The translations under genes were made by a program, and so were the position numbers. Below are positions 13,011 through 55,471 of a stretch of 61,811 bases of DNA, one piece after another (the first letter of the stretch is position 1; the number at the start of each line of letters is the position of its first letter). Source of the stretch: Bacillota bacterium (GTDB taxonomy: Bacteria > Bacillota_I > Bacilli_A > Acholeplasmatales > Acholeplasmataceae); the NCBI GenBank assembly GCA_018817915.1, contig JAHISX010000004.1:1-61811 (forward strand), in the 5' to 3' direction. Under the pieces are notes generated by a model. That model was not told the origin of the DNA. It ran no database searches and saw only the letters and a program-made list of their open reading frames with translations.

Positions 13011-13247
13011 AAAAATAAAACGTCCTTAGAAAAACCTAAGGACGTAAAAATACGCGGTACCACCTTAGTTCTAGAAATAAATTTCTAGCCCTTGAATCCC
13101 TTAACGCAGGTATACGGATAGGTCTACTTTCTTGTTAGATTTCTTCTATCTCTCAGAGTGTTCTTCATTATCATTGTTTGACTGGACTCACACCATCTCC
13201 AGCTCGCTTTCAAATCATAAGATAATTACTCTCTCATCATCGATTTC
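13011..13247 (-). promoter_or_regulatory. T-box riboswitch controlling asnS (Asn specifier)
   Basis: On the minus strand the leader carries the T-box AAGGTGGTACCGCG (13066-13053) that pairs with the tRNA acceptor end. It is followed by a terminator hairpin, CGTCCTTAG with CTAAGGACG (13044-13021), and a T-rich tail. In stem I, AGAGT pairs with ACTCT and ATTATC with GATAAT, leaving GAAGAAC in the specifier loop. The codon AAC (13162-13160) is read by tRNA-Asn, which fits the downstream gene. Confidence 0.93.
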
Positions 13248-13253
13248 TCATTT

Positions 13254-37304: not shown

Positions 37305-37310
37305 ATAGAT

Positions 37311-37525
37311 AACACGAAAAAGAGCATAGTAACTGATTGATTTTTAATTAGAGAGTTCGCGGGTGGTGCAAGCGAAAAAAGACAATCAATGAATCTCCTC
37401 TTGAGTGATGCTAATCCCATCCGTAAATCTGCGTTAAAGATGTTAAAGTGCTAGAGATTTTCTCTAGAACTAAGGTGGTACCGCGAAATTTCGTCCTTAG
37501 ATTTTAATCTAGGGACTTTTATTTT
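37311..37525 (+). promoter_or_regulatory. T-box riboswitch controlling serS
   Basis: The leader has a long stem I, the T-box AAGGTGGTACCGCG (37472-37485) and a terminator hairpin GTCCTTAGATT with AATCTAGGGAC (37493-37516) plus T-run. The stem I specifier region AATGAATCTCC offers UCU or UCC, both Ser codons; the exact register is uncertain. Uncharged tRNA-Ser should allow read-through into serS. Confidence 0.93.
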
Positions 37526-53736: not shown

Positions 53737-54585
53737 ATGATTTTATTAGATGGAGCAAAAGTGGCAAACGAACGAAATTTGATGCTTAAAGATATGATTG
53801 ATAAAGATTTAGTAAAATATCATAGAGCACCCAGTCTTTCCATTATTTTAGTTGGCGAAAATCCAGCGAGCCAATCCTATGTTAAGGGAAAAGGTAAAGC
53901 ATGCAAATTAGTTGGAATCAATCATCAATTATATAACTTAAAAGATGATGTCACTGAAGAGGAGCTTTCTAATCTTATTGAAAAACTTAATCAAGACGAA
54001 AGTGTTGATGGCATTTTATTGCAATTGCCCATTCCCAAACACTTAAATGAAGCAAAGTTGATTGATTTAATCTCTAAAGATAAAGATGCAGATGGATTTC
54101 ATGTAATTAATCAAGGATACTTATACCAAAAGAAGCCAACCATATATCCTGCAACACCCAAAGGTATTATGACTTTACTAAAGGCATATGATATTGATGT
54201 TTCAGGTATGGATGCAGTTATTATTGGTAGAAGTAATATCGTTGGTTTTCCAATCGCAAGATTACTTATGGATGCTGGTGCAACCATTACTGTTTGTCAT
54301 CGTCAAACAAAAGACCTAGCGTATCATACAAAAAATGCTGATATTTTAATTGCCTCAGCAGGTCGTGCTGAACTGGTGACTAAGGATATGGTTAAACCCG
54401 GAGCAATCGTTGTTGATGTAGGTGTTAATAGAGTTGATGGCAAACTCGTTGGCGATGTTCATTTTGAAGGTGTGAGCGAAGTTGCATCGTATCTTTCACC
54501 CGTTCCTAGAGGTGTTGGACCAATGACAATTAACGCACTCATGGAAAATACATACGAACTTTATTTGAAACACGTTCAAAAATAG
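53737..54585 (+). CDS. folD: Bifunctional methylene-THF dehydrogenase/cyclohydrolase
   Basis: The 282-residue enzyme has the catalytic region SYVKGKGKACKLVGI (Tyr and Lys), VDGILLQLPIPKHL and the nucleotide motif VIIGRSNIVGFPIARLL. It links methylene-THF and 10-formyl-THF. SD AAGGAAGTG lies before the ATG, 12 nt after fhs. No terminator is seen before the next promoter. Confidence 0.96.
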   Translation: MILLDGAKVANERNLMLKDMIDKDLVKYHRAPSLSIILVGENPASQSYVKGKGKACKLVGINHQLYNLKDDVTEEELSNLIEKLNQDESVDGILLQLPIPKHLNEAKLIDLISKDKDADGFHVINQGYLYQKKPTIYPATPKGIMTLLKAYDIDVSGMDAVIIGRSNIVGFPIARLLMDAGATITVCHRQTKDLAYHTKNADILIASAGRAELVTKDMVKPGAIVVDVGVNRVDGKLVGDVHFEGVSEVASYLSPVPRGVGPMTINALMENTYELYLKHVQK

Positions 54586-54631: not shown

Positions 54632-54661
54632 TTTACAAAGTAAAGTGTTGTTGCTATAATG
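54632..54661 (+). promoter_or_regulatory. Strong promoter of the purine-riboswitch-like leader
   Basis: TTTACA (54633-54638), 17 bp and TATAAT (54656-54661) with an extended TGC. A CTTTAC-AAA-GTAAAG palindrome (54632-54646) covers the -35. The predicted start is near 54668. Confidence 0.85.
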
Positions 54662-54676
54662 TTTATGTATTTAATT

Positions 54677-54742
54677 ATCGTATAAGCTTTCTAATTTGGT
54701 GAAAGTGTTTCTACTGTGGTGCCACAACACTACATCTACGAT
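54677..54742 (+). promoter_or_regulatory. Purine-riboswitch-class aptamer, variant
   Basis: The segment follows the purine aptamer pattern. P1 is ATCG (54677-54680) with CGAT (54739-54742). J1/2 is TATAAG. P2 is CTTTC/GAAAG with loop TAATTTGGT. J2/3 is TGTTTCTAC. P3 is TGTGGT/ACTACA with loop GCCACAAC, and J3/1 is TCTA. The loops can form the GG-CC kissing contact of the class. C at 54736 occupies the ligand-pairing position, predicting guanine-type specificity. Unusual points are the short P2, the altered L3 and T in place of the usual A just before that C. It starts about 9 nt from the predicted transcript start. Confidence 0.72.
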
Positions 54743-54866
54743 GGTTGAAGCATCAGGGGTTGTTTTAATCATTCGTAACCTTTATACGAGGTATTCAATA
54801 CACATTTAGGGGTAAATGGGGGATAGGTAGCATGTTTTTGTTACCGAATCACGTGTGGCAAAGAAG
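54743..54866 (+). ncRNA. Structured leader extension of unknown class, or independent ncRNA
   Basis: About 125 nt lie between the aptamer and its terminator, far more than a usual purine expression platform. Visible elements are TTATACGA (54782-54789), which can pair with the aptamer's TCGTATAA (54678-54685); CATTTA-GGGG-TAAATG (54802-54817); and ATTCGTAAC (54771-54779) with GTTACCGAAT (54840-54849), nine pairs with one bulge. TGTGGC (54854-54859) can pair with the aptamer's GCCACA (54721-54726). I know no RNA family that fits it. No open frame is present. Confidence 0.5.
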
Positions 54867-54892
54867 ACACCCAAAGCAATGGGTGTTTTTTT
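54867..54892 (+). terminator. Terminator of the riboswitch-like leader
   Basis: ACACCC (54867-54872) pairs with GGGTGT (54881-54886), followed by seven T. ppa begins 49 nt later without a clear promoter of its own. Confidence 0.92.
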
Positions 54893-54940
54893 GAGCATTA
54901 GTGATAAAATAGATTTGAATAGAAAAAGGAGAATGATCTA

Positions 54941-55471
54941 ATGAACATATGGCACGATATCAGCAAAGCAAGAATTCAACCCGAAAAATTTATTGCCTGC
55001 ATAGAAATTTCTAAAGGTAGTAAAAAGAAGTATGAGTTGGATAAAGAAACAGGCATGATTATTCTTGACCGCATACTATTTACATCTACACATTATCCCG
55101 CAAACTATGGTTTTATTCCTAGAACTTATGCTGGTGATAATGACCCCCTTGACGTTTTAGTTTTATGTCAAGAAGATATTGAACCTTTATCTATTGTTGA
55201 AGTTTATCCTATAGGTGTAATGAAGATGATTGATTCTGATGAAATTGATGAAAAGATCATCGCAATTCCATTTGGTGATCCATCACTAACACAGTATAAA
55301 GATATCAATGAATTGCCACAACATCTCTTAACAGAAATGGGACACTTCTTCGAAGTTTATAAATCATTAGAAGGTAAAAAGACATATATTTTAGATATTG
55401 AAGGTGCTGAATCAGCTAAGAAGATTATTGCTCAATGTATTAAGGTTTATGATGAAAAATTTGGTAAGTAA
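54941..55471 (+). CDS. ppa: Inorganic pyrophosphatase, soluble family I
   Basis: The 176-residue enzyme hydrolyses pyrophosphate. It has the motif DNDPLDVLVL with the metal aspartates and HYPANYGFIPRTYAGD. SD AAAAGGAG precedes the ATG. It is the first gene after the riboswitch-like leader and its terminator; yebC follows 12 nt downstream. Confidence 0.97.
   Translation: MNIWHDISKARIQPEKFIACIEISKGSKKKYELDKETGMIILDRILFTSTHYPANYGFIPRTYAGDNDPLDVLVLCQEDIEPLSIVEVYPIGVMKMIDSDEIDEKIIAIPFGDPSLTQYKDINELPQHLLTEMGHFFEVYKSLEGKKTYILDIEGAESAKKIIAQCIKVYDEKFGK

Follow-up and report, generated by a model that had tools for sequence, protein, structure and literature searches.

The folD–ppa locus

The window, by which we mean the whole 61,811-nucleotide stretch of DNA analysed here, carries folD (53737–54585), a purine RNA, ppa, yebC and glyA, in that order. 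These gene names are the ones we take from reading the translated open reading frames; ppa (54941–55471, forward strand, 176 amino acids), presumably encoding an inorganic pyrophosphatase, was named from sequence knowledge. From its leader to the end of its terminator, the purine RNA spans approximately 226 nucleotides (54667–54892, forward strand), and its homologues also lie between folD and ppa. Just 5′ of it is the strong promoter described in the original prediction, TTTACA and TATAAT separated by 17 nucleotides with a TG before the −10 element (54632–54660, forward strand; 11/12 in a consensus scan). This predicted promoter ends a few bases 5′ of the RNA start, and its extended −10 form is kept in homologues, by consensus match. 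At the other end, the anticipated intrinsic terminator with its U-tract, AAGACACCCA..UGGGUGUUUUUUU (54864–54892, forward strand), again a consensus match, is present and kept in all homologues. Downstream of the terminator, a predicted extended −10 promoter of ppa, TGATAAAAT (54902–54910, forward strand), is conserved by eye both in the homologues and in relatives without the purine RNA (L028, L235 and L243). Elsewhere, the window contains two T-box leaders (RF00230), at 13035–13249 on the reverse strand (119 bits) and at 37308–37501 on the forward strand (108 bits).

Almost every genome of the same genus carries the full RNA ahead of ppa, and it also occurs there in genera g4, g12, g13 and g15 of the family; judged by its named relatives, the group belongs to the Acholeplasmataceae. 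The ppa-side purine RNA of one g12 genome, G030 (L138/L242), has a different GGGGGAUAAAGUAUGCC hairpin and lacks the a:a′ fold described below; neither topA nor the partner small RNA was found in that genome, which is 86% complete.

The purine aptamer

The 5′ part of the RNA is a purine riboswitch aptamer (54675–54758, forward strand), as originally predicted: an Rfam covariance search matches RF00167 at 54658–54758 with 60.8 bits, where the gathering score is 37. Along with P1 (UCGUA/UACGA), P2 and P3, the window sequence keeps the guanine-riboswitch core, consisting of U51, C74 (at 54736), J1/2 UAUA and a J2/3 of the form GU(N)UCUAC (GUUUCUAC, 54707–54714), and comparison shows this core in every homologue whose genome carries the partner small RNA. 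The sequences for the GG/CC loop–loop contact between L2 and L3 are present as UUUGG and GCC. The variant features first noted, a short P2 with altered J3/1 and L3, are partly borne out: J3/1 carries an A73→U change, seen in the window species only, and L3 lacks one base relative to the Rfam consensus; however, C74 is unchanged, and several homologues share the short L3. Neither C51, the marker of the 2′-dG-I class, nor U74, that of the adenine class, occurs. Because U51, C74, J2/3 and the GG/CC sequences are kept and only A73 is changed, the sequence argues for an aptamer of the guanine class, with predicted binding of guanine or hypoxanthine, and against the changed ligand that had been offered as an option.

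One further purine aptamer is present in the window's own genome; it precedes an NCS2-type permease gene and has a short platform of the ordinary kind. Other purine aptamers, several of them low-scoring, lie ahead of unusual genes (L124, L125–L127, L128, L136 and L137), which we take from their N-termini to encode alanine dehydrogenase, an old-yellow-enzyme-like oxidoreductase and phosphonate-type binding lipoproteins.

The extension and the competing fold

The predicted fold of 218 nucleotides has a z-score of −4.7. The extension 3′ of the aptamer, rightly singled out as structured in the original prediction, reaches −3.9 alone and is conserved in homologues; against Rfam at E ≤ 10 it gives chance-level matches only, with no credible family. 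Comparison of the homologues shows a predicted fold in which both strands of P1 are captured within this extension. The 5′ leader, UGUAUUUAAU (54666–54675, forward strand), is the 5′ strand of helix P0/a and pairs with AUUCAAUACA (54793–54802), a helix that recurs across genera with compensatory changes. The 8-bp pairing noticed earlier, between TCGTATAA (54678–54685) and TTATACGA (54782–54789), is the core of this longer leader helix. In the predicted fold, strand a′ (UUAUACGA..GGUAUUCAAUACA, 54782–54802, forward strand) takes up the leader together with the 5′ strand of P1, and strand b′ (UGUUUUAAUCAUUCGUA, 54761–54777, forward strand) takes up strand b, the 3′ strand of P1 (54736–54752, forward strand), so that helices a:a′ and b:b′ are nested around P2 and P3. 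The switch strands vary by species yet stay complementary (for example GUAUUGAGUCGUAUAA, GUAUUUAAGUAUCG and GUAUAUGAUUAUCGUAUA, each with its own complement). It is this competing fold, not the aptamer, that is the predicted minimum in 25 of the 27 homologues, where P1 and the downstream structure are mutually exclusive, as had been suggested from the window alone. Forcing P1 to form without ligand costs 1–12 kcal/mol, which is plausibly within what ligand binding could pay. The second alternative pairing that had been proposed, between GCCACA of L3 and TGTGGC, has no counterpart in the homologues and appears to be fortuitous.

Two further elements complete the extension. Loop 1 (UCAGGGGUUGUUUU, 54753–54766, forward strand) is G-rich and is partly overlapped by b′ in the ligand-free fold. 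Hairpin H3 (54801–54857, forward strand) has a stem that differs completely between species and stays paired, and carries the near-invariant sequence AUAGGGGAUARGUARCAU. In the window species, the H3 stem (54801–54805/54853–54857) was drawn by eye, and an extra hairpin lies inside H3 at 54803–54818. A G-quadruplex was considered and dropped by eye, most homologues having just two GGGG runs.

A C-rich partner RNA

Across 61 genomes, the H3-derived pattern AGGGGATARGTARYA has 24 matches, whereas its reversed control has 1. Beyond the ppa-side RNA, these matches lie antisense to a small-RNA gene, and it is this recurrence of the H3 motif opposite a gene with the order promoter, hairpin, CCCC, hairpin, CCCC, terminator that identified the partner. 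The layout comprises a promoter, a 5′ hairpin (GCAUCC..GGAUGC), an exposed UACUUAUCCCCUAUU, a second hairpin (GUGUAC..GUACAC), an exposed AAAUCCCCUU and a terminator. In the window's own genome, the small RNA is approximately 100 nucleotides long and C-rich, has a predicted promoter and terminator, and sits between topA and a peroxiredoxin-like gene (G000:C12:18930–19030; L071 1531–1628, L087); further loci are L063–L067 and L072–L109. Of 160 genomes of the order searched with a covariance model, 46 contain it, nearly always in one copy, among them those of Acholeplasma laidlawii, A. oculi, A. granularum and A. equifetale. A diverged second copy, GCGACAUAGUCGCAACUUAUCCCUUACAUAGC...ACAUCCCCUUCC, occurs in genus g15 (L117, G073:C2:14983–15077; L120, G033:C2:39014–39108). 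Searched against Rfam, the small RNA reaches the gathering score of no family, the best E values (1.4–9) being to unrelated families, and it does not match the RsaE/RoxS model. It is thus a family absent from Rfam and conserved in the Acholeplasmataceae, including cultured Acholeplasma species. A literature search returned no report of either the purine RNA or the small RNA.

The small RNA is also present in genera without the purine RNA and therefore must have other partners. A search for mRNA targets by pattern and by comparison across genomes established none, and no other conserved long partner was found in Acholeplasma. The own genome is enriched in the pattern AGGGGATA-N(0–8)-ATG, with 20 occurrences versus 3 for the reversed control, and these sites may be targets of the small RNA or ordinary Shine–Dalgarno sequence; the longer pattern AGGGGATAAG also precedes ATG in genomes of the order where the small RNA was not found. 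Several of the AGGGGATA sites read AGGGGATAATG (for example, C56:33281 and C81:67375 of G000). guaC (L185) was an attractive candidate target but lacks a clear homologue in most relatives.

Trans pairing and covariation

The pairing site presented by H3, AUGGGGGAUAGGUAGCAU (54816–54833, forward strand), forms 18 contiguous predicted pairs, 3 of them G–U, with the own-genome small RNA by base-by-base reading, with a duplex energy of −31.7 kcal/mol. Across genomes, the pairing spans 14–19 positions and, on the small RNA, involves the first CCCC motif together with the 3′ arm of the 5′ stem-loop, a specific and conserved complementarity of the kind expected of a RosA-type sponge. In 20 genomes, cognate duplexes have a mean energy of −29.2 kcal/mol, compared with −26.6 (s.d. 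0.48) for permuted partners; 0 of 100,000 permutations, which take no account of phylogeny, matched the cognate mean. Other windows of the purine RNA give a mean of −7.5 against the small RNA.

When a single 19-pair helix is laid over 18 genome types, 91% of cells are paired, and in six pairs both bases have changed. Covariation scores 0.206, versus 0.149 when shuffled (0/500, without phylogeny correction) and 0.04–0.08 for slid partners. Double changes include C–G to U–A in G001/G012, and also in g4 and g15, and U–A to C–G in G015; in G011, A–U has become U–A and U–A has become G–U. Between G072 and G074, which belong to the same genus, several bases have changed together, the small RNA from UUACUUAUCCCC to UUACAUACCCCC and the purine RNA from GGGAUAAGUAA to GGGUAAUGUAA. 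These repeated double changes, like the four independent losses described below, do not depend on phylogeny correction of the permutation and shuffle tests. On comparative grounds, it is near-certain that the site pairs with the small RNA in trans. The homologues yield the covariation that the original prediction called for, within the switch helices as well as between the site and a second RNA gene.

This result bears on the earlier suggestion of a tandem switch, in which the extension would be the aptamer for a second ligand. Conserved unpaired nucleotides enclosed by a stem that varies but stays paired would suit such an aptamer, but the conserved nucleotides are exactly those that complement the small RNA, change together with it and decay upon its loss; given also that Rfam offers nothing beyond chance, we regard a second aptamer as very improbable.

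Natural losses of the small RNA

On a folD+ppa tree, the small RNA has been lost four times independently: in G009, in G010, in G004 together with G006, and in G033. By synteny, the gene is deleted in G009, G004 and G006, where the topA stop is followed by a bare terminator, and in G010 it is reduced to a 3′ remnant. These four are exactly the genomes of the genus in which the site has been lost from the ppa-side RNA; the window species, to which G009 is sister, carries both RNAs. In the fifth genome, G033 of g15, the main small RNA finds no match and the purine RNA is gone in its entirety, with folD, a terminator and the ppa promoter remaining. Comparison thus shows each loss of the small RNA accompanied by decay of the site or disappearance of the purine RNA, and site loss was found in no genome that retains the small RNA.

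Of the four genomes that retain the purine RNA but not its site, three also show decay of the ligand-binding core. J2/3 is mutated to GUUUAUUC, GUAUUUAU and GUUUCUAU in G009, G004 and G006, respectively, and P1 is additionally changed in G004; core mutations are confined to lineages without the small RNA, and J2/3 is intact in all partner-positive genomes. Since both site and core decay after loss of the small RNA, the simplest inference from these sequences is that the purine sensor is useful mainly alongside the small RNA. The fate of the purine RNA, as read from the genomes, tracks the small RNA and not ppa.

An ordinary purine riboswitch with a long platform, whose complementarity to another gene is coincidental or left by an old inverted duplication, would account for membership of RF00167. 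The permutation, slid-pair and co-loss results are not expected from coincidence, however, and a relic would not be kept up by compensatory change, which leaves this explanation with very little probability.

A candidate riboswitch-gated sponge

The explanation that we favour, with some confidence, is that of a purine-gated sponge: a separate RNA of approximately 226 nucleotides that would combine a guanine-type aptamer, an anti-aptamer switch and an antisense hairpin for the small RNA. The original prediction had listed a free small RNA among its options, and this one is supported. RosA sequesters RoxS and has been proposed to unfold the 5′ stem-loop of that small RNA (PMC8216469); by analogy, the purine RNA probably acts as a sponge. 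H3 would pair over 14–19 nucleotides with the small RNA, masking its first CCCC motif and probably opening its 5′ stem-loop. Loop 1, which contains AGGGG (AGGGGUUG), may also bind the second CCCC motif, though more weakly (−7 to −14 kcal/mol) and with no covariation; the antiparallel order allows both contacts. Without ligand, the leader and the P1 5′ strand would lie on a′ and the P1 3′ strand on b′; with purine bound, P1 would form, releasing b′ and a′ and freeing the G-rich loop 1 for the small RNA or for the terminator arm. We infer the direction of this control, with the small RNA as the controlled party, and its gating by the ligand, which would change sponge activity or termination. The computed opening energy of the H3 pairing site shows no consistent difference between the two folds. 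Support for this reading is comparative throughout, with promoters and terminators being consensus matches, and the unusual A73U of the window's own aptamer counts against it.

Because a freed loop 1 could bind the terminator arm as well as the small RNA, a cis riboswitch for ppa–yebC has to be weighed, in which purine would free loop 1 as an antiterminator and the small RNA would tune the switch by binding loop and hairpin. In 19 of 20 genomes, no other window of the RNA complements the terminator 5′ arm as well as loop 1 does; the loop is covered in part by b′ in the ligand-free fold, and the purine RNA always stands ahead of ppa. These observations fit cis control and speak against a sponge. 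Yet the antiterminator (−7 to −13 kcal/mol) contains bulges and shows no covariation, ppa has its own conserved promoter past the terminator even where the purine RNA is absent, and core, loop and site decay in lineages without the small RNA though ppa stays. Cis control would also leave the 14–19-bp trans site unexplained, and we consider it unlikely, though a serious competitor. The neighbouring ppa, folD and glyA, read at first as a sign of purine or one-carbon sensing, are probably not the main clue, because ppa has its own promoter and the fate of the RNA follows the small RNA.

The pairing data are symmetric as to who controls whom, and the small RNA is more widespread in the order than the purine RNA; it could itself be the regulator, silencing a purine-sensing RNA whose own output lies elsewhere. 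We see no further output for the purine RNA, and its decay or deletion upon loss of the small RNA points to a function that relies on this partner, which makes this arrangement rather improbable.

Returning to the purine-gated sponge, we hold it a little more likely than not that this is a natural system in which the purine aptamer of one molecule directly controls capture of a dedicated C-rich small RNA, two co-evolving non-coding RNAs of the Acholeplasmataceae thereby forming a metabolite-to-sRNA circuit. If true, a metabolite aptamer would steer a small-RNA regulon instead of the adjacent gene, with a single molecule joining two levels of RNA regulation; the four independent losses amount to a natural experiment and make the circuit directly testable. 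A further outcome is a small-RNA family that Rfam does not contain.

Relation to known systems

RosA of Bacillus subtilis, a sponge of RoxS and FsrA, is a close parallel by description: it is a stand-alone, G-rich RNA of 229 nucleotides whose G-rich regions pair with C-rich motifs of small RNAs (PMC8216469). Its transcription is under CcpA, and the parts of that report available to us mention no riboswitch (PMC8216469), whereas here a purine aptamer is built into the RNA. RsaI (RsaOG) of Staphylococcus aureus is likewise a G-rich RNA that binds C-rich small RNAs, RsaE among others, as the purine RNA is predicted to do, although its role as a sponge is described as not definitively proven (PMC8216469). 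The partner small RNA shares two exposed CCCC motifs and a Rho-independent terminator with RoxS/RsaE; unlike them, it has no Rfam match.

We know of no aptamer in RsaI. In EutX/Rli55, an AdoCbl riboswitch RNA sequesters EutV through antiterminator-like hairpins; there, too, a riboswitch determines which form is taken by an RNA that acts in trans by titrating a regulator, but the regulator is a protein, not a small RNA, and the ligand class is different. SreA, a SAM-riboswitch RNA of Listeria that acts in trans on an mRNA, offers the likeness of a terminated riboswitch RNA that base-pairs in trans; its target is an mRNA, and to our knowledge it has no dedicated partner small RNA with matching co-loss. 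With the guanine riboswitches of RF00167 themselves, the purine RNA shares the three-way junction, the J2/3 core, the GG of L2 and CC of L3, U51 and C74, and a P1 that competes with alternative pairings. It differs from them in that both P1 strands are predicted to be captured downstream, the output hairpin would be an antisense site, and the promoter of ppa lies past the terminator.
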